A stretch of 27,183 nucleotides of DNA from a virus. This document shows, piece by piece, positions 1,593 to 27,183 of this stretch. Made by a program: the position numbers and the translations under genes. The stretch's first letter is position 1. Each line of letters opens with the position of its first letter. The stretch covers positions 1 to 27,183 of the IMG/VR virus record IMGVR_UViG_3300048587_001114; one strand, 5' to 3'. The notes below the pieces were generated by a model. It was given only the letters and a program-made list of their open reading frames with translations. It ran no database searches and was not told the DNA's origin.

Positions 1593-4500
1593 GTGGCTCT
1601 GATGACCTCCACGTCGAGGCTGTCGGGTGCGGCGGGCGCGGACGCGTCGGCCGTGCCGGAGATCTGCAGCCGCGTCGAGACGCCGCCCGCGGCCGACTCC
1701 GCCTCGATCGCCACCGTGATCTGCGTGCCGTGGCTGTACGTGCCCAGGGCCTTGCGGAACTCGCGTCCGCCGTCGAACGTGACCAGGTGCGTAGGCGTGC
1801 CGGGCATGCCGCTGCCTGAGTCGACGTACAGGCGGAACCGCTTGGCGGCCACCGCCTGGCCGGCGGTGACGTGCACCCACCGCAGCGTCATCAAACCGTT
1901 GGCGCCCTGCACGAGCTCGAGGCCGATCGGTGGGTTGGGTCGGGGCACGACCAGGTCGCCGTCGGCGTCGAACTCCACTCGAACCAGGCGAACCGGCTCC
2001 ACGTCCTCCACGCCGCACTCGCTGACGGCCTTGACATTCAGCCACTGCACCGAGCTCGCCCGGAAGCCGGCCAAGTCAGCCGTGCCGCTGCCGGCCGGCA
2101 GGTGGTCCCACAACCGGTCGGGCCCACGCTCCGCGGTGCGGCGGTAAACGCGGTAGACGTTGCCGACCGTCAGATCCGCCGACACGTCCACCGAGATCTC
2201 GGCAGCAGCCTCGTGGATCTCGTCACGGGTGACGGCTGCCGACGAGCTCACGGCCACCGACGACTCTGCCCCGGGCGACAGCGTCAGCTGCAGGCCCGAG
2301 CTCACCGACACATCGGCCTGCCCCGTGGCATCGGGCGCCAGCACCAGGCTCAGCGTGGCCGACGAGCTGATCTCGATCGACGCCTCGGCATAGGGCAGCA
2401 GCGTGATCGTGGCGGTAGAGCTCACGTCGATCGACGCCTGGGCCTCGGGCGCCAGCGTCAAGGCCGCGACGGCCGACGACGTCACATCGATCGCCGCCGC
2501 GCCGCCGCTAGCAGCCAGCAGCAGCCCCAGGGACACGTCAGAGCTCACGTCGATCGACGCCGCCGCGTCGCCTGCCAGGTAGCCGGCCGCCTCGTAGTGA
2601 GCCTCAACGCGAGCGGCGGACAGCACCTTGTTGTAGATCGCCGTCTTGTCCAGCGTGGCCGACAGGAAATCAGTGGCACTGGCGTAGGACCGGCAGAGCC
2701 GGCCGCCGGCGAAGTTGGCAAAGGTCGCCGGCGCCGTCGGCGTGCCTGAGTGCGTGAAGGTCTGCAAGACGGTGTCGACGTAGACCCGCACGGTGGCCGT
2801 CAGCGGCTCAACAGCCACCACCAGGTGATGCGAGTCGCCGTCCGTGATGCCCGTGTCAACCTCGACGGCGCCGGAAAACTCCACGCCATCCGCACCGCGG
2901 AAGCCCACGCGAATGAAGCCGGTCGACGGCGACGCGCTGTTGAACCGATTGGCATTCAGGGCCACGAACCAAAACGTGAGGCCCGAGGCCGGACGCATGT
3001 CGAGCAGCTTGCGGCCCTGAGTCGTGTCGGTGGTCTTGATCCAGGTCTCAAACGTCAGGCCTGCCCCTGCGTTGCTGCCCAGCGTGCCAATGGCCGGCAA
3101 GGTCGCCGACTGCGAGCTGCCGCTGGCAAAGGTGACGGAGGTCCCGGCCTCGGTGGCCACGATGGCCGTAGCCTCCAGCGTCGGGCTGTTGACGTACGCG
3201 CCGTCGTTGGAGTTGCCCGACGAGTCCAGCATGACGGTGTCGCCAGCGGTCTCGTCGTGCTTGTAGAACGCTTCGGGGCCGTCCACGTCTACGGCGTCGG
3301 AATAGGGCGTCGCCACCGGGTCCGGCGTCGCGACCCCCAACTCCACCCCCGTCTCATCCAGCTCGATCGCCGCGACGTTTCCCAACGCGATCGGCCCGCC
3401 CGTCGTGCTGAGCCCGGCCTGCCCCCAACTGTCGCGCCCCTCGCGGCCCGGCTCCCAGCGCGAGACCTGGTAGCGCGGCAGGATCGCGCTCGGGTCGCCG
3501 TGTCGGGCCAGCCGGATGGCGATCTGCTGCGCCTCCTGCGGTGTCGGCGCGGCCGACCAGACGCAGGTGTCGCCGATGTCGCCGTTGCAGTGCTGGATCG
3601 CGCTGGGCGAGGTCCAGGGCAGGCCGCCGATCATCGTGACGTTCGGGCCGGTGATCGCCGTCACGCTCGCGGTGCTGACGCCGGCCAGCACTCCGTCGAT
3701 GAACAGGTACCGCAGCGACGCCGAGGCCCAGATCACCAGCAGGTGGTGCAGCTTCGCGGTGTCGGTGATGGTGATGGTTGATGCCAGATCGTCCTGGCTG
3801 CCGCCGTCCTTGCGGTAGCCGACGCTGATCTGCCCGACGTCCTGGCCGTAGTGCGCGATCCACAGGGCCTCGAGCGCCAGCGATCCGGCCTGGCTCACGG
3901 CCCAGATGCGGCTCAGGTCCGCCGCGCCGTTCCACCTGAACCACGTGCTGACCATGCACGGCGCGCCACTGACCACCGCGCTGGATCGCGAGAGGTACTG
4001 GCCCGAACCGTCGCCCAGGTCCGACATCTTCCACGCGAGCTGCGGCACGCTGTTCGGCGTCGCGATCGTCGTGGGCTGCGCGGTGTCGGCGACTTCGATC
4101 ACGTCGTCCTCGGCGGGCGCGACGAAGGCGTTGGACCAGTCCTTGTCCGTGAGGCCCGATGGCGTCAGGTCATAGCCGCCAATCAGGTCGCGGTCGTGGC
4201 CCTTGCCCCACCAGTGAGCGACCGGCCGCAGGTTGGCCGCACTGCCGCCCGCCATGTAGTAGGCGCGCTCGCGGTCGGTCAGGGCGCGGTTGAAGATCGC
4301 GAGGTCAGCGATCAGGACTTCGCTGCTGTAGTACGTGGTTCCATAAGTCGTCTCGCGGCAAACGTTGATCCGCGATAAGCCACTCAGCGATGGCGTGCTA
4401 CCGACGCTGACGTTGTTTGTCCCGCCCGCGCCGCCGTTGAGCCAGCACGTCGAATAGCCGGAAGCAAACTCAGCAATTGCGGCATTCCAGGCTCCGACTT

Positions 4501-10701: not shown

Positions 10702-11145
10702 TTACGGTTCTTCTTCCTCGGGTGGCAGCGGCACGAGCTGCATCCAGGTCCAGACGCACAGCCGGCGAAACGCCACGGTCCCTTCAGCGGCTTCCGCGCT
10801 GGGATTCGCAGGCTCCACCGGCCCCAACACGCGAAAGTCCTCCAGCTTGCATGGGTCGAACACGATGCCGTGGATCGTGACCTTGCTGGTCTCAGCCCGG
10901 TTGCGACGCTGGTCCCATTCGACAATCCGACGCAGCAAGGCGCCGTTGGCTGCGGTGTAGGTGGCGCCCTCGGCCACCAGGTAGCCGGTGATCTGCATCG
11001 AGCCAGGCTTCTCGCTACCCACCGTGACGAAGCGCTTGGCGATGCCAGGATGGTCGTTGACCTCGATCGTGCTGGGAGCCGGCGAAGGCTGGTGACGCCA
11101 GTCGATGCGATCGTTTACCGCGATGTCGTTGACGAGGTACTCCAT
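10702..11145 (-). CDS. tail protein between tape measure and hub, 147 aa
   Basis: The ATG overlaps the TGA stop of the tape measure by one base (TGATG). The gene lies where siphophages usually carry the distal tail protein or a small tail adaptor. The sequence shows a beta-rich N-terminus, a central segment VEWDQRRNRAETSKVTIHGIVFDPCKL and an acidic Pro/Glu tail (PLPPEEEEP). I do not recognise the family from motifs; a distal-tail or LysM-less adaptor role is suggested only by position. There is no signal peptide or membrane segment. Confidence 0.65.
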   Translation of the reverse strand: MEYLVNDIAVNDRIDWRHQPSPAPSTIEVNDHPGIAKRFVTVGSEKPGSMQITGYLVAEGATYTAANGALLRRIVEWDQRRNRAETSKVTIHGIVFDPCKLEDFRVLGPVEPANPSAEAAEGTVAFRRLCVWTWMQLVPLPPEEEEP

Positions 11146-13250
11146 CAGTCAAGCCTCCCCGTCGGCGACGTGAGGCGAGGCTCGCCATTGACGTACATGT
11201 TGGTGACGTTGACCGCTCCCTGCTGCTGTTCGATCCGCGAAATGAGGCCGCTGATGGTTGTTTTCAACTCATCAAGCCGTTCGGCGATCTCACGCTCACG
11301 CGCGGTGGGCTCGCGGTAAAACGACTTCGCGCGAGGGATACCGCCAGGCCCAGCGACCGTTCGAACTTCCGTTGGCCTTCGCAGGAGTTCTGTCCGCTTG
11401 TCGATCGCGGCATAAGCAGCCTCCAACGCATCCTCGCCAGTCAAACCGCCACTGCCCTCAAACAGAATCTCATCAAGCTTGGAGGCAAGCGCTCCCTCTC
11501 CAGAGGTCTGCAGGACCTCTTTGAGCTTGGACCGAACTGCGCCGCTCATCGCGCCGCCCAGATCTGACTGAGACAGTCCGGCGGCGGTGGTGCTAAACGC
11601 TCGCTCAGCCTGCGCAATTGACTCGGACGGCCCGGTGTTGAGACGACGGATCGTCTCCAAGCCCCTGCGGCGCAGAGCAGCGTCGTCCCCGAACTCCGAG
11701 CGAAACTGTATGAAGCTTTGATAGGTCGCAGTGCCGGGCGTGAGCAGTTCCTTCGAAGGGACATCCGCGGCAGCCTCAAAGCTGGCCTTTGACAAGAACT
11801 CTGCGCGTAGCGATGAATCAGCTTGAAGAGCAGCAATCGCTGCGTCTCCACGTTCAGATCGACCGAGGGATTCGAAGAACGCATTGATCTGGCGCGACAG
11901 GCTGATCTGCGCCGTGCGTGTCATCTCTCCCGTCCGGTCCGCTGCGCGATTCGAAATGGCAGCGAACATGCTGCCGGCGCTTTCGCGCGAGAAGCCGTTG
12001 CCCATAGCGCCCGTAACAGCTTGCGGAATGGTCGTGTCACCACGAGCGCCCACCACCCGCGACAGGCCGGCAACGGTCTGGAGATACCCAAACCCGACCA
12101 GGTTGTCGCGCGTACCAATGGCATTGGACGTGTCGCCAATCGCACCAGCGAGAACCGGAGCTCGCTCGGGTTGATCAGGGCGGATCTGCAACGCCAGCCC
12201 CACCAGGTCCGCAGAGCGCCCTTGATCGCCGCCGGTAGAGCTCATGGCGTCTGCCAACGACGACAAGACATTCGGCAGCGGCACCCCATACTTCCGCGAC
12301 AAGTCCTCGCCTGTCTGGCGCATCTTCGCGTACTCGGAATCAGAGGCGCCCGGCATGTTCAGCTTGAGGGTCCGCTCCGCGCTGGCAACCGTGACGTTTT
12401 CCTTGAACGCCTTGTCCTGCAACTGCACGATGAGCCGCAGCTCAGCCACGATCGCCTGGTAAGCCGCAAGGATGCTGCCTGCTCCGGTCAGCACGGGGAA
12501 CAGGCTGCCGGCAGCGCCACGCAAAAGCCCGAACGTGGCAGCCAGTGAACCGGTGGCGCCATCAGCTTCCACAGTAGCCTGCGTGGCGCCACGAATGGCT
12601 CGCGACATCTCCGACTCGATGCGGTCGCGTTCACGCAGTCGAGCGGCAATCCGTTCGATCATGCGGGCACGACGCTCGGCTGCCTGCTCAGCCGCCGCGT
12701 CGGCCTGCGTTCCTTGCGAGGTCAGGCGAGCAGCACGGTCCTGCTCAACGATCAGTTCTCGCAGACGGTCACGCAACCGCTGCTCCGAGTTGCCACGCCG
12801 TTCACTGCGTTGCGACGCACGATCCGTGGCTTCTGCCGAAACGCCTGACTGTGCGGCGCCATCAGCGTCGGCCTGCGTTGCCGCCCGCTGCGCTTCTGCC
12901 GCCTCGCGAACGCGGCGCGTCATCTCCGCCTGGATGTTGACCTCGCGGCCCAGCTCGTCCGTGATGCGCCGGATCTGATCCTCGCGGGCTTCGGCGATCG
13001 CGACCTCGGACTGGTCGATCGTCGCCCCCTCGCGGATGCTCTGCAGGTACGCGTCCTGAGCTCGAACCAGTTCCTCGAGGCGTGCCCGCAGATCCTGCTT
13101 GGAAGCCGACTGCTGCACCGCCGCCCGCGCGGAGAGCTCGCCGGCCTGCTGAGCCGCGAGCCCGAACTCCTGCTCCGCGCGGACCGCGTCCAACACGGGC
13201 TTGGTCGCCTGGTCGTCGGCCGTGATCCGGATTTTGACCTCTTCAGCCAT
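11145..13250 (-). CDS. tape measure protein, 701 aa
   Basis: Tape measure proteins set tail length and are ejected with DNA. The long N-terminal part (about residues 15-215) is an Ala/Arg/Glu/Gln-rich coiled coil. A hydrophobic stretch (about 228-268, with LLRGAAGSLFPVLTGAGSILAAY) is typical of the membrane-inserting part of tape measures. The rest is helical, with Ser/Gly/Thr-rich regions and a C-terminal tag ending RLTSPTGRLD. At 701 residues it is in the usual range for a medium-length siphophage tail. It starts only three bases after the stop of the putative tube gene, so there is no room for the usual tail-assembly chaperone pair. A truncated homologue of its C-terminus lies at the right edge of the window. 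Confidence 0.85.
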   Translation of the reverse strand: MAEEVKIRITADDQATKPVLDAVRAEQEFGLAAQQAGELSARAAVQQSASKQDLRARLEELVRAQDAYLQSIREGATIDQSEVAIAEAREDQIRRITDELGREVNIQAEMTRRVREAAEAQRAATQADADGAAQSGVSAEATDRASQRSERRGNSEQRLRDRLRELIVEQDRAARLTSQGTQADAAAEQAAERRARMIERIAARLRERDRIESEMSRAIRGATQATVEADGATGSLAATFGLLRGAAGSLFPVLTGAGSILAAYQAIVAELRLIVQLQDKAFKENVTVASAERTLKLNMPGASDSEYAKMRQTGEDLSRKYGVPLPNVLSSLADAMSSTGGDQGRSADLVGLALQIRPDQPERAPVLAGAIGDTSNAIGTRDNLVGFGYLQTVAGLSRVVGARGDTTIPQAVTGAMGNGFSRESAGSMFAAISNRAADRTGEMTRTAQISLSRQINAFFESLGRSERGDAAIAALQADSSLRAEFLSKASFEAAADVPSKELLTPGTATYQSFIQFRSEFGDDAALRRRGLETIRRLNTGPSESIAQAERAFSTTAAGLSQSDLGGAMSGAVRSKLKEVLQTSGEGALASKLDEILFEGSGGLTGEDALEAAYAAIDKRTELLRRPTEVRTVAGPGGIPRAKSFYREPTAREREIAERLDELKTTISGLISRIEQQQGAVNVTNMYVNGEPRLTSPTGRLD

Positions 13251-16312: not shown

Positions 16313-17611
16313 TCAGCCCGCCGCCGGCGTGATGATGCCCACGACCGGGCCCGGCGTGGTCGCGTCGCCCAGCGTGTGGTTGTTGATGGCGTGACGAGCA
16401 GTCGCCAGCACCCCGATCTCCTTGCTCGTGAAGTAGGCCTCGCGGCTGGTCTCGATGGTCAGTTGCTGCCGTGAGCCGTGCGTGGACGACAGGCCGATGT
16501 CGCCGTAGATCGCGGCGATCTGGCTGTTGCCCGTGCTGCGCGGCATGACGTGCGAGATTTCGACGGGCGTGCCGAACACCTGCAGGCCGGGCCGACCCTC
16601 GATCTCGGAGCGGGTGACGCCGCCGGCGTCCGTGATGATCTTGGCCAGGCGCTGCCAGTAGAACTCATTGGAGCACACCAGCACGCCCTGGCCGGGGCGA
16701 ACGTGGCGAGCCTGGCCGATGGCCTTGAGGATGTCGTCCTTGCCGATGCCGGTCCAGCCGCTGCCGGCCGCACCGCTGCCCAGCACCAAGCCGCCGCCGT
16801 CGTTGACGCCGTTGATCTCCTTGAGCAGAAACGTGATGCCGGTCTCGTTGTCGTAGGTGTCGGTGCCGTCACCGATCAGGCCGTTCTCCTCCAGCATGAT
16901 CGAGAAGCCCAGGCTCATCTCCTGGAGCAGGAGCTCAGCCACCGCGATCAGGGCGTCGGCCTCCAACTGCTTGGGGTAACTGGTGAGGATGTCATAGTCG
17001 GCGGCGGTGAGGCTGATGGGAGCCACCGTCATGTTCTGCTTGTCCACGGCGGTACGAATCTTCGTCTTGTGCGCACGCATTCCGCTGACGCGTCGCGTGA
17101 AGCTGGCCTCCGGCGTGGTCATGGGCATCATGAACGCGTTGCGAGCCCACACGCTGGAGTCCTCCACCAGCCGTTCGATGCGGCTGGTGTGTTCGTGCGG
17201 GATCAACGCCTGATCGCCGGTGATGTCCTTGGCGTAGGCGCCCATAAATGCCTTGTGGTCGGCGTTGAGGATCTCCAGGCTTCGCTTGCGCATGGAGTCG
17301 TCACCGGTGCGAGCCATGACGCACAAAGCGAAGGTGCGGGCCTGCTCCTCGGAACCGAAACCACCGCGGTAGTTGCCGTGCAGGTCGTAGGCCCGACGGG
17401 CAGCGGCGGCGAGTTTCTGATCGAGGTCGGCCAGCGAGGTCTTGTACTGCTGTTCGAGCTGCTTGACGGCGTCCTCAGCCTGCTTGAGCCGGCCGTTGTC
17501 CGCGCCCCAGCCCTTGATCTCGTTCAACGTCGCCTGGATCTGCTTGAGGTCGCCGGCGAGGATCTTCTCGGCGGCCTTCTCGATCAGTGCCTTCAGTTGA
17601 ATCTCGTCCAT
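16313..17611 (-). CDS. major capsid protein (HK97 fold), 432 aa
   Basis: It forms the icosahedral head. The N-terminal 80-90 residues are a coiled-coil, scaffold-like delta domain (KALIEKAAEKILAGDLKQIQATLN and so on), normally cut off by the prohead protease. The rest matches HK97-type capsids: the IPHEHTSRIERLVEDSSVWARNAFMMPMTT region (about 135-165), a long E-loop/spine-helix segment with LEADALIAVAELLLQEMSLGFSIMLEENGLIGDGTDT, then the ITFLL, A- and P-domain strands. Synteny with the protease just upstream supports it. I chose the ATG at 17611 because AAGGA lies nine bases upstream; the longer reading would start in a region with no signal. Confidence 0.85.
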   Translation of the reverse strand: MDEIQLKALIEKAAEKILAGDLKQIQATLNEIKGWGADNGRLKQAEDAVKQLEQQYKTSLADLDQKLAAAARRAYDLHGNYRGGFGSEEQARTFALCVMARTGDDSMRKRSLEILNADHKAFMGAYAKDITGDQALIPHEHTSRIERLVEDSSVWARNAFMMPMTTPEASFTRRVSGMRAHKTKIRTAVDKQNMTVAPISLTAADYDILTSYPKQLEADALIAVAELLLQEMSLGFSIMLEENGLIGDGTDTYDNETGITFLLKEINGVNDGGGLVLGSGAAGSGWTGIGKDDILKAIGQARHVRPGQGVLVCSNEFYWQRLAKIITDAGGVTRSEIEGRPGLQVFGTPVEISHVMPRSTGNSQIAAIYGDIGLSSTHGSRQQLTIETSREAYFTSKEIGVLATARHAINNHTLGDATTPGPVVGIITPAAG

Positions 17612-17655
17612 GTGATTGCGTCCTTGCGATGAGTGATGAATGCGTTGCCTGGCGA

Positions 17656-18495
17656 TCAACCTTCGCCAGCGAGGGTCCGGAGCGAACGCTCCAGATCAGC
17701 GGTGCCCGACTTGGTTCCGGGGTTGGGCGACCCGTCGTCGTCGTGGTGATGCCCTTGGACCTGCAGGCGCTGGTAGGTCTCGACGACGTTTTCGATCAGA
17801 CCAGCCAGCCGGCCATTGAGGTCGGCATCGAGTGCTTTGGCAATCTCGGTGGCGATCAGCGAGCGGAGCTCGTCATGATCACTTTGAATTTCGAGCAGCT
17901 CCCCAGGCACCGTGGCCCCCATGCCAGCCGAGGCCGCACGCGACAGCGCGGCGCGGTTCGCCGGGATCGGCACCGCGGAGATCTCCAGCAACTCCACCTC
18001 GGTGAACACGCGAAGGCGCTTGCGGGGCCCTTCTTTCATGTCGAAATCCCGCATCTCCCACGCGTGAGCCAGAAATCCCACGCTGAATCCTTTGGCCCGC
18101 TTCTTCGGATCGGGATTGGAGTATTTGCGCCACCAGGCATCGGAAGTCTCGTCCTCGTCAAACCACGCGGTGCCGACAAGGCCGCCTTCTTCGACAGACA
18201 GATTCAGCCAAGTGCCGATCTGGGCAGGCTTGCCGTCCGCCCGCGTGTACTGATGCCCAGGCATTAGCACCGGGTTCTGCATGAAGGTCTTGAGCCACTT
18301 CTTGTAGGCCCTGGGATCGACGATCTCTTCGTACCGATCCGGGTCATGGGTAGACACCACGGCCTCTACTGTTCGATCGTTCAGATTGATGCCGCGGACC
18401 ACCATTTCGCGAGCGCCTTGATCACCAGCAGACGGCTCCAGTTCGCGAGTCGAGGCGTCAAGAATTTTGCGGATGACGTCGGCGTACTTGTTCAT
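17656..18495 (-). CDS. prohead protease (HK97 gp4 / U35 family), 279 aa
   Basis: This serine protease processes the capsid delta domain during head maturation. Visible landmarks are the PGHQ motif with likely catalytic His81, the GFSVGF motif with likely catalytic Ser138, and the ELLEISAVPIPAN segment (about 168-180) that is diagnostic of phage HK97-type prohead proteases. The C-terminal part (about 190-279) is acidic/helical and ends in a His/Asp-rich stretch (GHHHDDDG). The ATG at 18495 overlaps the portal stop (ATGA). The gene order portal, protease, capsid is the classic HK97 order. Confidence 0.85.
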   Translation of the reverse strand: MNKYADVIRKILDASTRELEPSAGDQGAREMVVRGINLNDRTVEAVVSTHDPDRYEEIVDPRAYKKWLKTFMQNPVLMPGHQYTRADGKPAQIGTWLNLSVEEGGLVGTAWFDEDETSDAWWRKYSNPDPKKRAKGFSVGFLAHAWEMRDFDMKEGPRKRLRVFTEVELLEISAVPIPANRAALSRAASAGMGATVPGELLEIQSDHDELRSLIATEIAKALDADLNGRLAGLIENVVETYQRLQVQGHHHDDDGSPNPGTKSGTADLERSLRTLAGEG

Positions 18496-20903
18496 GGTTC
18501 GGTCCCTTCGATGTCGCGGGTCTGCTCGGCGCCCAGGAAGCCGTGCTGTAGGAGGTGAGCGATGCCCCTGGCATCGGCGATCGTGTCGTTGGGGTAGCGG
18601 TTGATCGTGGTGCAGCCACAGTTCGCGGCGTCTTCTGCATCCAGGCCAGGGCCGCGTGGATAGGGCGTCTGGGCGCCGGTCTGCGGAAGCGTGAAGTCCC
18701 GGTCGATTGGGATAGGCGAGGCCATGGTCTGACGCTCTGCTTCAAAGTGCCAAGGCCGGCCGGTCTCTTTTCGAGACCACAGCCATGTCTTGTTCGGCAC
18801 GCCCGCCTGCTTGCGTCCCTGCTGCCTCGCGTCCTCCACGGCGCCGCCAATCTCCGTGCGTGCGATTGTCTTGGCACGGCCGGCGGCGAGATTGAACTCC
18901 TTGCGTAGCCGTTCAGCGATCTGACTGGTTGTCTCGCCCTGCGACAGGCCCTCGGCCATTTCACTGGCCAAACGACGACGCAGCGTCTTGTTGGGTTCCT
19001 TGAGCCGGACCTCACGGGCACGCATCGCGGCCTCAACGCCGGGGTCCTTGATCGAGAATGGATCAGGCTTCGTCTTGCCTGTGGCGGCGGCGTGCTCCGC
19101 CATCACCTGCTTGCCGCCGAGTTCAAAGGCGGTGCGCATCAGCGGCCGGGCTCGCAGCAGCCAGCGAGTGTCGGCATCGGAAAGATCAAAAAGCACCTGG
19201 GCGATGATGTCGCGGTGATGCACAGGCATCTGCCGCACATACTCACGACGAGTCCGACCGCTTTTCGGATCGACATCAAACAGCCGAACCGCGACATCGG
19301 CCAACGCCGATGGAGGCAATGCGAGCGTGACGCCGTCAAGCCGACGCAGCACCTGCTGGCGGAGCTGATGCACGTGCTTCGACCAGCGAGACTCGCCGTT
19401 GGTTTCGAGGCCCGCCCAGCTCGCCCGCCATGCCATCCAGAGGCGTTCGAGTTGCGACGCGGTCAGCTTCGCGACGTGTTCGAAAATCGACTTGCCGGCA
19501 TCCTCGTCGGGCATCGGCTTTTGTTCATCCGTCGCGTCAGCGGCGCCGTCGGGATCAGTCGCCCCCGGCAATGTCGCGGCTTCGTCTTGAACGTTGACCA
19601 AGCCAAAGGGCCGGTACCACGTGTTGCCCCACCACGGCTCTTCGAAAGGAAGGTCATACGCGGAAATCACCTGGTTCAGCGGCACACCGAGAGCGATCCA
19701 CTCAGCCGCCTGCTTGGCCAACTCCAACGTCGCTTTTTGAAGGATCGACACGGTCGATGCATCAAACCAGAAGTAATACTGGTAGCCGTGCACGCCTGCC
19801 CTGACCTTGCATTCGCCGCGATGGCGTTGCACACGTTCACGCTTGGCCATCTTGCGCTGCCGCGCGTCACGAAGCGACAGAGAGGCGTCGCCGACGAACG
19901 CAGGCAGTAGCGCCAACATCAACTCCGAAGCGATCCATTCGGCCCGAGGCAGATGCGTGCTCGTCCACGCGATTTCGTCAGCCTTTTCGGTGGGCTGGCC
20001 ACTGCCCAATCCCTCGCGACCGGTGTAGCCCATCGCCAGCGGACTCATACCGAATGCGACGCAAATGTCTTCCCGGCTGTAGTACTTGAGTTCAGTAAAC
20101 TCCATCTCGGCGAACGAGCTGAACAGCTTCTCGACCGTCAGTCCGCCTTCAAGCAGCATCCAGCGATGCCGGTTTGATGGCCCGCTGAAGCGATCTTCCA
20201 GCGTCGATTCGAGCTCGTCGCGCTGCGGCTCGGTCAGGTTGCGATCGGTCTTCAGACCAAGCCCTCCGCCAGCGCCATGACGCAGCGATTGATCGTTGGC
20301 GACGTCAGCTTGGTAGTGCTGCGAGATCGCCAGACCTGCGGCGTGCCGCGGACTCAATGCACGCTCCAAGTCGCCCGTCCCGTAATCGGGATCGGTGATG
20401 ACGTGCACCTGCTCAAGCGTCAAATCCTGTGCGACGCCGACGCGACCGATGGGAGCGTAGGTGTAGCCGATGATGCCGCTGACGCCACGCTGCTCAGCAA
20501 TCTCCAGGGGCGACACCGGCCGCCAGCCGATGATGCGTCCGCCCGCAAGCTGCTTGACGATGTAGACCCTGCCGAACAGATCCAAGAACGCCGAGATCGC
20601 CATGGCCGCCAGACGAAACGTGAAGCCTGCGGCAGGGCGTTCGAGCAGCTCGACCAGCGGCCCGTTCTCAACGATCTGATCGTCAGCGGTGGACACGCGC
20701 AGCGGCATCATGGACAGAGCCTGCGCCTTGCGCTTGACGCAGGCATATACCGCCACGACCTTGCTGTAGGGAGTTTCAACCGTCTGAGTTGAAGTCTTCG
20801 CCGCAAAATACTTCGCCAACTCCGCAAGGGACATGGCGTCGGCCGATCGCCGCACGGGGCGGATCGGGTGTCGATGCGTGGCACGTGGCGTTCGGTATCT
20901 CAC
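18492..20903 (-). CDS. portal protein fused to a Mu F-like head morphogenesis domain, 803 aa
   Basis: The N-terminal two thirds is a phage portal (about residues 30-440): YSKVVAVYACVKRKAQALS near the start, LLEGGLTVEKLFSSFAEMEFTELKYYSREDICVAFGMSPLAMGY in the middle. The C-terminal third (about 600-780) has the Mu gpF-like pattern, with LKEPNKTLRRRLASEMAEGLSQGET, AKTIARTEIGGAVEDARQQG and a closing CGCTTINRY. In most phages these are separate genes. At 803 residues it exceeds a portal alone by roughly the length of an F protein. I set the start at the GTG at 20903: it overlaps the terminase stop (GTGA) and has GGAGG eight bases upstream. A TTG six bases further up is too close to that site. Confidence 0.8.
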   Translation of the reverse strand: MRYRTPRATHRHPIRPVRRSADAMSLAELAKYFAAKTSTQTVETPYSKVVAVYACVKRKAQALSMMPLRVSTADDQIVENGPLVELLERPAAGFTFRLAAMAISAFLDLFGRVYIVKQLAGGRIIGWRPVSPLEIAEQRGVSGIIGYTYAPIGRVGVAQDLTLEQVHVITDPDYGTGDLERALSPRHAAGLAISQHYQADVANDQSLRHGAGGGLGLKTDRNLTEPQRDELESTLEDRFSGPSNRHRWMLLEGGLTVEKLFSSFAEMEFTELKYYSREDICVAFGMSPLAMGYTGREGLGSGQPTEKADEIAWTSTHLPRAEWIASELMLALLPAFVGDASLSLRDARQRKMAKRERVQRHRGECKVRAGVHGYQYYFWFDASTVSILQKATLELAKQAAEWIALGVPLNQVISAYDLPFEEPWWGNTWYRPFGLVNVQDEAATLPGATDPDGAADATDEQKPMPDEDAGKSIFEHVAKLTASQLERLWMAWRASWAGLETNGESRWSKHVHQLRQQVLRRLDGVTLALPPSALADVAVRLFDVDPKSGRTRREYVRQMPVHHRDIIAQVLFDLSDADTRWLLRARPLMRTAFELGGKQVMAEHAAATGKTKPDPFSIKDPGVEAAMRAREVRLKEPNKTLRRRLASEMAEGLSQGETTSQIAERLRKEFNLAAGRAKTIARTEIGGAVEDARQQGRKQAGVPNKTWLWSRKETGRPWHFEAERQTMASPIPIDRDFTLPQTGAQTPYPRGPGLDAEDAANCGCTTINRYPNDTIADARGIAHLLQHGFLGAEQTRDIEGTEP

Positions 20904-22354
20904 TGCCAACGCCTCCAGTTGGTTCGGCCGAGGGTCCGAGCAGTCGGAGTCGCGGTCAGTTCGCTATGGCCAGCCATGATCGCCAGGGCGCCGCTGTAGG
21001 CGATGTCGCAGTGCGATTCGGGCAACAGCGGGTTCTCCGACTCGACCAGCTTCAGGCTGCCCTTGCCGTTCTCGTCAGTGGCGCCGTCCGCGTCGGACTG
21101 CTTCTGCACCGCGTAAAGGTCGGTGGCGACGAACTTGAACGCGCTGCTCAGCGGCGGGATCGTCTGCGCGCCGTCGCGAAACGCCGTCGCCAGGCCGCTG
21201 CCCAGATCGCTCTTGCGCTTGCCGCCGAAATTCACAGGCGTCCATCGCTCCGGGTACTCGGTCTCCAGCGTCTCGTTGCTGTCCATGCCCAGGCCTGTGG
21301 AATCGCCGCATCCCACGCTGGTGGGCTTGCTGCGCATCGCTTCGCGAATGATGTCCCGCTGCAGGGCGAAGCTGCAGTTGTGCATGACCACCAGGTAACG
21401 CAGGTGCTTCACCTCGGGGCGACCATCGTTGATCCAGAGGGACGACAAATGTCCGCGACGCGCCACGTCCCAGCCCAGTTCCGGCCGGCCCGAGATATCG
21501 CCCAGGGCCTTGAAAAACGAAGCCGACCAACCGGCTTCAGCCTCGACACGAATAAAGTCGAACGGCCGGCCTTCGCCGGCGGCGCCCGCGGCTTCGAGCT
21601 GCGCCCATCGCAGCAGCGATTCGAGAGCGCCCATGAACTTGCACTCGTACTCGCGCTGCCAGCCGATCTCATCGCCGTACAAAGCCTTGAAGGCGTCGAT
21701 CGAGCAGGGCTTGCCGTCCTGGTCACGCAGCTCAAAGCCTTCGGCGACGCTCTGGTAGATGTCGCAGAAGTGCACGCTGTAGAGCTTCGGATCGCTCACC
21801 AATTCGTAGAACTTCGAGTCCTTGCCGCGAGGCGTGCTGATCGCAATCACGCGGAAGCCACGCGTCGCCAGCGGGAACACAACCCGCCAATGGTCGTAGC
21901 CCCCGCGGGGGAACAGGCCAAACTCCGTGAAGATCACGTTGCCCGTCAGGCCGGCGATGGTGTCGGGGTGACGGCCGGGCAGACTCACCACGCGCCCGCC
22001 ATTGGGCAACACCAGCTCGCGGGCCTTGTGCACGAACGTGTAGTCAAGCTCCGCGTCATACTCCTCGTAGGGCTGGGAGTCGATCTCATTGATCTTCTGC
22101 TCGTAGTACTTGGCCCACCACTTGCACTTCTCGAAGGTGGAGTCGGCCTGCCGCTGCGTGAGCGACACGATGTACCAGGACTCCCCACGCTCCATTGCTT
22201 CAAGCACAGCCTTGGCCGCCGTGGTGAAGTCCTTGCCCTTCTGGCGGTGCCAGCACACGACCTGCACGCGAGCCTGGTCAGCGAAGAACCGCTGTTGGGC
22301 AGCGTCGAGCTTCACGGGAGGAGCAGCAGGCCGGCGGGTGCGAGTCTTGCTCAT
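20900..22354 (-). CDS. terL: large terminase subunit, Mu gp28-like, 484 aa
   Basis: This is the ATP-driven DNA packaging motor with a C-terminal nuclease. The ATPase part has a Walker A-like WHRQKGKDF (about residues 35-43, an Arg-Gln variant), a hydrophobic Walker B-like strand with acidic residue Glu144 (NVIFTEFG) and a coupling motif ISTPRG (172-177). The RNase H-like nuclease has candidate acidic residues Asp296 (GWDVARR), Asp351 (CGDSTGLGMD) and Asp450 (HCDIAYSGALA). The overall character matches Mu-like gp28 rather than the lambda or T4 terminases. It is coupled by ATGA to the gp27-like gene and by GTGA to the portal gene. Confidence 0.85.
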   Translation of the reverse strand: MSKTRTRRPAAPPVKLDAAQQRFFADQARVQVVCWHRQKGKDFTTAAKAVLEAMERGESWYIVSLTQRQADSTFEKCKWWAKYYEQKINEIDSQPYEEYDAELDYTFVHKARELVLPNGGRVVSLPGRHPDTIAGLTGNVIFTEFGLFPRGGYDHWRVVFPLATRGFRVIAISTPRGKDSKFYELVSDPKLYSVHFCDIYQSVAEGFELRDQDGKPCSIDAFKALYGDEIGWQREYECKFMGALESLLRWAQLEAAGAAGEGRPFDFIRVEAEAGWSASFFKALGDISGRPELGWDVARRGHLSSLWINDGRPEVKHLRYLVVMHNCSFALQRDIIREAMRSKPTSVGCGDSTGLGMDSNETLETEYPERWTPVNFGGKRKSDLGSGLATAFRDGAQTIPPLSSAFKFVATDLYAVQKQSDADGATDENGKGSLKLVESENPLLPESHCDIAYSGALAIMAGHSELTATPTARTLGRTNWRRWQ

Positions 22355-24743: not shown

Positions 24744-24782
24744 TGCATCGCCCCGGGGGACGGGGCAAACAGGAGATTGAGC

Positions 24783-25175
24783 ATGAGCAGCAACGGCAGC
24801 AACAGTGGGACTTGGGGACCGCCGATCGGACAGCCAACTGTCAGCATCTACCGCGCGTGGACGGTCCTCCGCGACTGCCTCGGGGCACTTGAGCGCGGCA
24901 ACCTCGACGGCATCAATCGCTCCGTCCAGATCGACCTGGCTTTGCGATCCGAGCCCGCGCAACTGACCAGCGTCGCAGCCGTAGACCTGCTGGAGCGAGA
25001 GATCGTGTCTCGCGGGCTGCCGATGGTCGTCGCCAGCAATGCGGCGTCGGCGGCGTTTGCGGTCGCCAGCGGGGATCGCTGTGGTGCGGGTCGCGTCCTG
25101 CTCAACACCGCACTCAGCAGCCTCAACTACACGCCCCCCGTGATCGAGCCGCCCTACAACGTCGAGCAGATTTGA
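24783..25175 (+). CDS. hypothetical protein of unknown function, 130 aa
   Basis: This is the first gene of the rightward unit, opposite in direction to the late operon. AGGAG lies seven bases before the ATG at 24783; a TTG six bases earlier is the only alternative start. A disordered Ser/Asn/Gly-rich N-terminus (about 1-20) is followed by a helical body (about 25-115) with ALERGNLDGINRSVQ and VDLLEREIVSRGL, and a Pro-rich end. It has Cys35 and Cys103-type residues but no recognised motif. Control by the -10 palindrome and closeness to an HTH gene suggest a regulatory or early role, which is inference. Confidence 0.65.
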   Translation: MSSNGSNSGTWGPPIGQPTVSIYRAWTVLRDCLGALERGNLDGINRSVQIDLALRSEPAQLTSVAAVDLLEREIVSRGLPMVVASNAASAAFAVASGDRCGAGRVLLNTALSSLNYTPPVIEPPYNVEQI

Positions 25176-25240
25176 CGCCTCGCGCCCGGAGCCGTGCCCG
25201 CGACGGCCGAGGGCCTGCGGCGTCAACGGAGCAACAGCCC

Positions 25241-25438
25241 ATGACCATCCCCATCGTTTCGCAGCTCGACGCCCAGCGGCAGCGCCTGGGCTGGACCTAC
25301 GCGGAGATCGCCGCTCGGGCCGGCACGTCGCCGGCAGCGGTGCATCGCTGCCTGTCGGGCAAACAGCAGCCGCGGGCCGACCTGATTGAACGGCTCGCGA
25401 CAGCGATGTGCTGCGAAGTGCTCGTGCGCCCGAAGTGA
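25241..25438 (+). CDS. small XRE/Cro-type HTH DNA-binding protein, 65 aa
   Basis: Nearly the whole protein is a helix-turn-helix domain: LDAQRQRLGWTYAEIAARAG, then TSPAAVHRCLSGKQQPRADLIERLATAM. This is the classic five-helix XRE/Cro layout, with the recognition helix at SPAAVHRCLSG. At 65 residues it is Cro-sized, with no extra sensor or dimerisation domain. The ATG at 25241 has GGAG nine bases upstream; a TTG overlapping the previous gene's stop at 25172 would add a poorly conserved Arg-rich tail. It lies 65 bases after the 130-aa gene, in the same transcript, and probably binds the palindrome at 24726-24743 to regulate the unit. Confidence 0.75.
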   Translation: MTIPIVSQLDAQRQRLGWTYAEIAARAGTSPAAVHRCLSGKQQPRADLIERLATAMCCEVLVRPK

Positions 25439-25478: not shown

Positions 25479-25627
25479 CCGGCCAGGGCTGCGGATAGAA
25501 AAATCAAGGGGAAAATGGAGCCGGGGACAGGCGGCGTGATCACGGCCGCTTTTGGCGATGGCGTGGGCAATCAACCCGTGCGTCGTCGCGACCGGCTCCC
25601 GCCTCGTGGAGTGTTTCGAACGGGGAA

Positions 25628-25700
25628 TTGCGGGGGCCGAAATCGAACCGGCGACCTCCTGGTTATGAGCCAGACGAGCTGCCTGCTGCTCTACCCCGCA
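25628..25700 (-). tRNA. tRNA with CAT anticodon, initiator (fMet)-like
   Basis: The 73-base cloverleaf folds fully: 7-bp acceptor TGCGGGG/CCCCGCA, D-stem GAGC/GCTC with an 8-base loop, anticodon stem TCTGG/CCAGG with loop CTCATAA (anticodon CAT), 5-base variable loop and T-stem GCCGG/TCGGC with loop TTCGATT; the discriminator is A73. The D-stem carries A11:U24, the bacterial initiator hallmark, and the body closely follows E. coli tRNA-fMet. It differs by having U1:A72 in place of the C1 x A72 mismatch, and U29:A41 in place of the first of the three G:C pairs. The 3' CCA is not encoded. Confidence 0.9.
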
Positions 25701-25740
25701 GTGGTGATGTGGCGTTGTGCCGAGCATCCGTACCCGCGAT

Positions 25741-26736: not shown

Positions 26737-27183
26737 TCAATCCAGGCCCCAGATGCGGCCCTCCAGCCGGCCGTTCGGAGCGGTCAGCCGGCTCTCGCCG
26801 GCGTTGTACTGGTTCGCAATATTGATGACCGTTTGCGGTCGAGACGCCTTCAGCGCCTCGATTACCACGTCCAGCCGATCGGCCGCAGCAGCATCCCGCG
26901 GAGTGGGGTCCTTCACGCGAGGCACAATTTGCCCGAACTGCCCAGTACGCGGGGCTTCTTCGGGCAGCGCATTGGCGTAATCCTCTGCTGTCAGTGCCGC
27001 TCGAGGGGCACGCAGAAACGCCTTGCGGCGTTCCAGCAGACCGATCGCCGTATCCAGGGCAGCTTCGTTCCCTGGAAGCCCCTGCGCGTCAAAGATCATC
27101 GAGTCAATCTGACTGCCCAGATCGCCTTGGCCAGCCGCCTGAAGCAGCGCCTTCAGGTTCTCTCGCAACGCGCCGGCTGTAGC
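26737..27183 (-). CDS. C-terminal part of a second tape-measure-like protein (cut by the window edge)
   Basis: The frame is open to the last base of the window, so only the final 148 residues are visible. They align with the C-terminus of the tape measure protein encoded at 11145-13250: ALRENLKALLQAAGQGDLG matches AVRSKLKEVLQTSGEGALA, LLERRKAFLRAP matches AIDKRTELLRRP, and the end RLTAPNGRLE matches RLTSPTGRLD. This copy has eight extra residues (GRIWGLD end). The homology is clear but the sequences have diverged well beyond a recent duplication. No other tail gene follows it on the left, where one would be expected, so it is either the end of another phage module or a remnant. Confidence 0.75.
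   Translation of the reverse strand, partial: ATAGALRENLKALLQAAGQGDLGSQIDSMIFDAQGLPGNEAALDTAIGLLERRKAFLRAPRAALTAEDYANALPEEAPRTGQFGQIVPRVKDPTPRDAAAADRLDVVIEALKASRPQTVINIANQYNAGESRLTAPNGRLEGRIWGLD

Follow-up and report, generated by a model that had tools for sequence, protein, structure and literature searches.

Discussion of phage tRNAs mostly treats them as codon supplements or as nuclease-resistant stand-ins during elongation, and a viral initiator that is maintained would suggest that phages equip themselves for initiation too. The locus studied here raises the question of whether its one tRNA is such an initiator, whether it belongs to the phage and what it would do there. The window, that is, the stretch of DNA analysed, is the whole virus record of 27,183 bp. 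ARAGORN and Rfam (RF00005, 59.5 bits, E 1e-10) revealed a single tRNA in this record, at positions 25628–25700 of the minus strand, which has the anticodon CAU and reads UGCGGGG-UA-GAGC-AGCAGGCA-GCUC-G-UCUGG-CUCAUAA-CCAGG-AGGUC-GCCGG-UUCGAUU-UCGGC-CCCCGCA-A. By base-pair parsing, the acceptor stem contains U1:A72, a weak pair and no mismatch, followed by G2:C71 and C3:G70, and A73 is present; the D stem is GAGC/GCUC, with A11:U24, and encloses an 8-nt D-loop (AGCAGGCA), while the anticodon arm consists of U29:A41, G30:C40 and G31:C39 and the loop CUCAUAA. The T stem contains a G53.U61 wobble. All stems are intact, and CCA is not encoded, the bases directly after the tRNA being UUC. A preliminary description of this DNA had named U1:A72, A11:U24 and U29:A41 in this CAU tRNA, and parsing bears out all three. 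Energy folding of the bare transcript gave no cloverleaf, but it gave none for a cellular initiator either and was therefore left out of the evidence.

The isotype was assessed with two covariance models, one built from 24 cellular initiators (R1) and the other from 12 CAU elongator-type tRNAs of Planctomycetota (R2). The initiator model gave the window tRNA 89.7 bits, against 71.4 bits from the elongator-CAU model. The direction of this 18-bit lead is clear, although scores from separate models can be compared only roughly and Ile2 is not separated within the elongator set. The controls separated in the same manner: the cellular planctomycete initiator L299 scored 102.9 bits with the initiator and 69.0 bits with the elongator model, and cellular elongators scored 60–67 against 82–98 bits (for the elongator L320, 60.1 against 98.4). 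The direction also agrees with the D stem, as planctomycete elongator CAU tRNAs have C11:G24, and mostly G1:C72, whereas the window tRNA has A11:U24. The initiator-type identity proposed earlier thus stands, the elongator-CAU score being the lower one. A canonical tRNA-fMet has three G:C pairs at 29:41, 30:40 and 31:39, and the window tRNA keeps the latter two; because U29:A41 replaces the first, we term it initiator-type, by its body and D stem, rather than a canonical tRNA-fMet. The three pairs are not absolute, since variation at 29:41 is found in cells as well (A29:U41 in 17 of 113).

The gene content of the window and its relatives bears on whose gene this is. The window genes form a late module of typical make-up, with terminase, portal, protease, capsid, adaptor and tail genes, among them the terminase large subunit (20900–22354, minus strand), a portal protein fused to a Mu-F-like head morphogenesis domain (18492–20909, minus strand) and the major capsid protein (16313–17659, minus strand). 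Terminase relatives among sequenced phages include B3 and similar transposable phages, and 19 viral loci match the window terminase. One relative, L265/L293 (about 82–89% identical, terminase 89% at the amino acid level), holds a tRNA in the same place. In the more distant L271, an initiator-type tRNA with a C1xC72 mismatch and a GGG/CCC anticodon stem lies within the late operon, between homologues of the window head-tail genes g15738 and g14140. All tRNAs found in this terminase group are CAU tRNAs with an initiator-type D stem. L271/L297 and a related prophage in the planctomycete genome G210 encode MuA/MuB-type transposition genes, which makes an integrase attachment site at a tRNA unlikely. 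The phage is probably a temperate, Mu-like (transposable) siphophage; the Mu-like label derives from these relatives, since the 27-kb window, possibly incomplete, showed no gene for an integrase or a transposase.

The preliminary description had allowed that the tRNA might just be an initiator gene of the host; the gene would then lie in DNA flanking the phage or be an attachment site. Such a reading would suit the lack of an integrase or transposase gene in the window and the divergence of L265 directly after the tRNA 3' end. We consider it highly improbable and rejected it given the synteny in L265, the operon position in L271, the transposable relatives and the phage-like genes on both sides of the tRNA (the terminase side and a tape-measure-like fragment at 26737–27168), all of which point to a phage-borne gene. 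Among the cellular genomes compared, the best match is 89% identical and comes from a Caldisericales genome, and planctomycete initiators differ from the window tRNA at 1:72, at 29:41 and in the D-loop.

The L265/L293 tRNA is identical to the window tRNA at 72 of 73 bases. The terminase genes of window and L265 are 85% identical, and 70% at third codon positions; at these two rates, at most one change in 73 nt would be expected with P of 1e-4 and 1e-10, respectively. The tRNA is thus maintained and, judged by this divergence, under purifying selection. The non-coding DNA adjoining it is also conserved between the two phages, including the 5' leader (25701–25735, minus strand; 35/35 identical in L265/L293). 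These values, a single change in the tRNA against 15–30% divergence in the terminase gene, argue against a passenger or decaying relic, a captured host gene that has no function, as does the intactness of all stems. A relic would account for the sporadic distribution, most terminase relatives being without any tRNA (though many of these records are fragments), for G53.U61 in the window tRNA and for the A31xC39 mismatch and long insertion of the L267 copy, and we regard it as improbable. The L267 copy (3399–3485), a CAU tRNA of a related phage, has a 7-nt D-loop and a palindromic insertion in its variable region (TACACAAGTGTA), and is perhaps a pseudo-tRNA.

The host probably belongs to the Planctomycetota. 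Among 392 Planctomycetota genomes, G210 contains a terminase homologue 67% identical to that of the window, beside portal and capsid homologues. Cellular initiators of planctomycetes resemble the window tRNA in their GUAGAGCAG body, in A73 and mostly in the lack of CCA, with 83–88% identity, but differ from it at 1:72, at 29:41 and usually in D-loop length: in the genomes examined, position 1:72 is mostly U1xU72 and sometimes C1xU72 or C1xC72, G29:C41 is the usual pair at 29:41, and most have a D-loop of 9 nt. C1xA72, the state against which the tRNA was originally measured, is therefore the wrong yardstick here; the departure from the initiator of the likely host is nonetheless real, at both 1:72 and 29:41. 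Nor is U1:A72 aberrant in itself, as had been supposed. Of 113 cellular initiators selected for U1, 9 have this pair, and so do initiators of Verrucomicrobiales, Caldisericales and other groups; in Verrucomicrobiales and Caldisericales genomes the U1:A72 gene was the sole initiator match found. We accordingly rejected U1:A72 as a novel element.

The same pair could permit EF-Tu binding, so that a dual-purpose methionine tRNA would both initiate and elongate at AUG. A 1987 study (cited in PMC9976931) is reported to have turned the E. coli initiator into an elongator in vitro by a single base change. This change was reportedly C1 to U1, which gives U1:A72. The 71 bits that the window tRNA obtains with the elongator model would fit as well. 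We think this rather doubtful, since initiator scores are clearly higher, there are cells in which the one initiator gene matched has U1:A72, and the L271 tRNA contains a C1xC72 mismatch.

The simplest account is that the tRNA would work as an extra initiator during phage gene expression, and we consider it probable that it is a working initiator tRNA of a temperate, probably Mu-like Planctomycetota siphophage that adds to the host pool in infection. Transcription of the tRNA would take place around the early/late boundary; the host MetRS (CAU, A73) would charge it, the host enzyme would add CCA, and formylation would be at least partial, as G2:C71, C3:G70 and A11:U24 are kept and a weak U1:A72 pair replaces the mismatch. 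With G30:C40 and G31:C39 kept, it could then be used in the ribosomal P site and enlarge the host initiator pool during phage late gene expression. The kept features have been tied to MetRS recognition, support of formylation and P-site selection (PMC7949028, PMC9976931). By the E. coli standard, a paired 1:72 and the loss of one G:C should make formylation and P-site selection less efficient (PMC7949028); the variants at 1:72 and 29:41 have parallels among other natural initiators or phage copies. Counted against a working initiator are the unusual G53.U61 and the upstream region, where a search for promoters of the sigma-70 type found none.

Phage-borne initiators are already known, and the interesting part is the U29:A41 that viral copies share, a simple handle in that a single base pair can be compared between host and phage tRNA. 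We searched for it with the pattern GAGCAG-N2-3-GGNAGCUC-NNC-U-GG-N-UCAUAACC-A-G, which assumes the usual D-arm body, an assumption that held in the planctomycete genomes examined. None of 398 Pseudomonadota genomes matched, and one of the 392 Planctomycetota genomes did (G107). G107 has two initiator genes: one is canonical, and the matching one lies in an unrelated prophage with a phrog_15 terminase, a phrog_21 portal and a head protease. When 29:41 was left free, cellular contigs gave G:C 96, A:U 17 and U:A 0 (n=113) and viral contigs gave U:A in 6 of 115 (Fisher P 0.03), counts in which related sequences are not independent and cells and viruses are sampled differently, as whole genomes and as contigs, some of the latter with host flanks. 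The 9-nt-loop version of the U29:A41 pattern alone was found in 79 viral contigs, with 53 distinct sequences, 14 of which also have U1:A72, compared with 4 of 67 other viral initiators (P 0.004). In a sample of 24 phage records, annotated or complete, that was drawn from those matching the window tRNA, a selection that favours its own bases, U29:A41 occurs in 10, U1:A72 in 9 and both in 6; the D arm of RcXuper and the tRNAs of Vibrio phi-ST2/D482 parse irregularly, and their D-stem assignments are unreliable. The sampled phages with the signature infect Caulobacter, Rhodobacter, Mycobacterium and Alishewanella, and one is an uncultured myovirus. Given the biased sampling, differing sources, kinship and D-arm assumption, we treat U29:A41 as a viral signature of initiator tRNAs in the sense of a strong lead and not a law. 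Viruses of many bacterial phyla may, as a tentative suggestion, maintain an initiator class with U29:A41 (often with U1:A72), selected via P-site/IF3 scrutiny or toxin escape; in that case, part of the initiation of translation in phages would go through a retuned tRNA.

Toxin escape also underlies the main rival to a working extra initiator, ahead of dual use, a passenger and a host gene. The phage copy would replace a host initiator that defence toxins, namely VapC-type anticodon nucleases or acetyltransferases, have cut or modified, and U29:A41 would aid its escape. The pair is rare or absent in cellular initiators and recurs in viral ones (79 contigs; 10 of the 24 phage records), and VapC toxins cut initiator tRNA, phage tRNAs being altered in the anticodon loop near the cut sites (PMC10264068). 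Yet the anticodon loop CUCAUAA is unchanged here, tRNA-fMet is generally avoided among the tRNAs of phages that infect a VapC host (PMC10264068) and no nuclease was identified in any host, so we judge such a replacement unlikely.

A phage-borne initiator tRNA as such is not exceptional, contrary to what the preliminary description implied: 250 of 50,697 INPHARED phage records match the window tRNA, including CcrSC, CcrBL9 and QDWS359 (all annotated tRNA-fMet), phiLM21 and Bixzunavirus. A lone tRNA-Met or tRNA-fMet has been described in phiLM21-like prophages (PMC12429752) and tRNA-fMet in Erwinia jumbo phages (PMC7760394); our literature search found no papers treating phage-encoded initiator tRNAs as a class. 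The tRNAs of the Caulobacter Dolichocephalovirinae CcrSC, CcrBL9 (tRNA-fMet) and CcrColossus (tRNA-Met) have an initiator-type D stem and U29:A41 like the window tRNA, and those of CcrSC and CcrColossus share U1:A72 with it, but these are phages of 280–322 kb whose tRNA has a 9-nt D-loop, an encoded CCA and a base other than A at 73. Sinorhizobium phiLM21 and phiLM21-like prophages (PMC12429752) are, like the window phage, temperate and carry a lone initiator-type CAU tRNA with U29:A41, located in phiLM21 just upstream of the terminase genes, a further likeness; they belong to a different phage family, and the phiLM21 tRNA has G1xA72, a 9-nt D-loop and an encoded CCA. The second initiator of G107, carried by its prophage (L352, 6072–19743 of G107 C1), has U29:A41, an 8-nt D-loop, an adjoining Xre-type regulator and a terminase module downstream, as in the window, and differs in its U1xU72, its opposite orientation and the unrelated phage that carries it. 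Initiator-type tRNAs are unannotated in the GenBank records of DoCa5 (L342), where the tRNA lies close to the terminase gene, and PaMx74 (L431), and several other INPHARED matches likewise are without tRNA annotation.

The surroundings of the window tRNA hold further features. Between it and the late operon lie two small genes (24777–25438, plus strand) with no counterpart in L265, one of them unassigned and the other encoding an HTH (Xre-type) regulator (25172–25438, plus strand) recognised by Pfam and PHROGs. A conserved non-coding stretch 3' of the tRNA (25500–25599, minus strand) is 89% identical to L265 and was found in these two records only. A long hairpin, GGAGCCGG...CCGGCUCC, followed by AUUUU, can form in it, with a folding energy no better than that of shuffles (z-score 0.14); the stretch matched no Rfam family and could be a terminator, a small RNA or a packaging site. 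At the right end of the window, 26737–27183 (minus strand) encodes a C-terminal fragment that shares 34% identity with the tape-measure-like protein encoded at 11145–13250. A search of viral contigs found no relative of this fragment, which could come from a second phage, from duplication or from a chimeric join.
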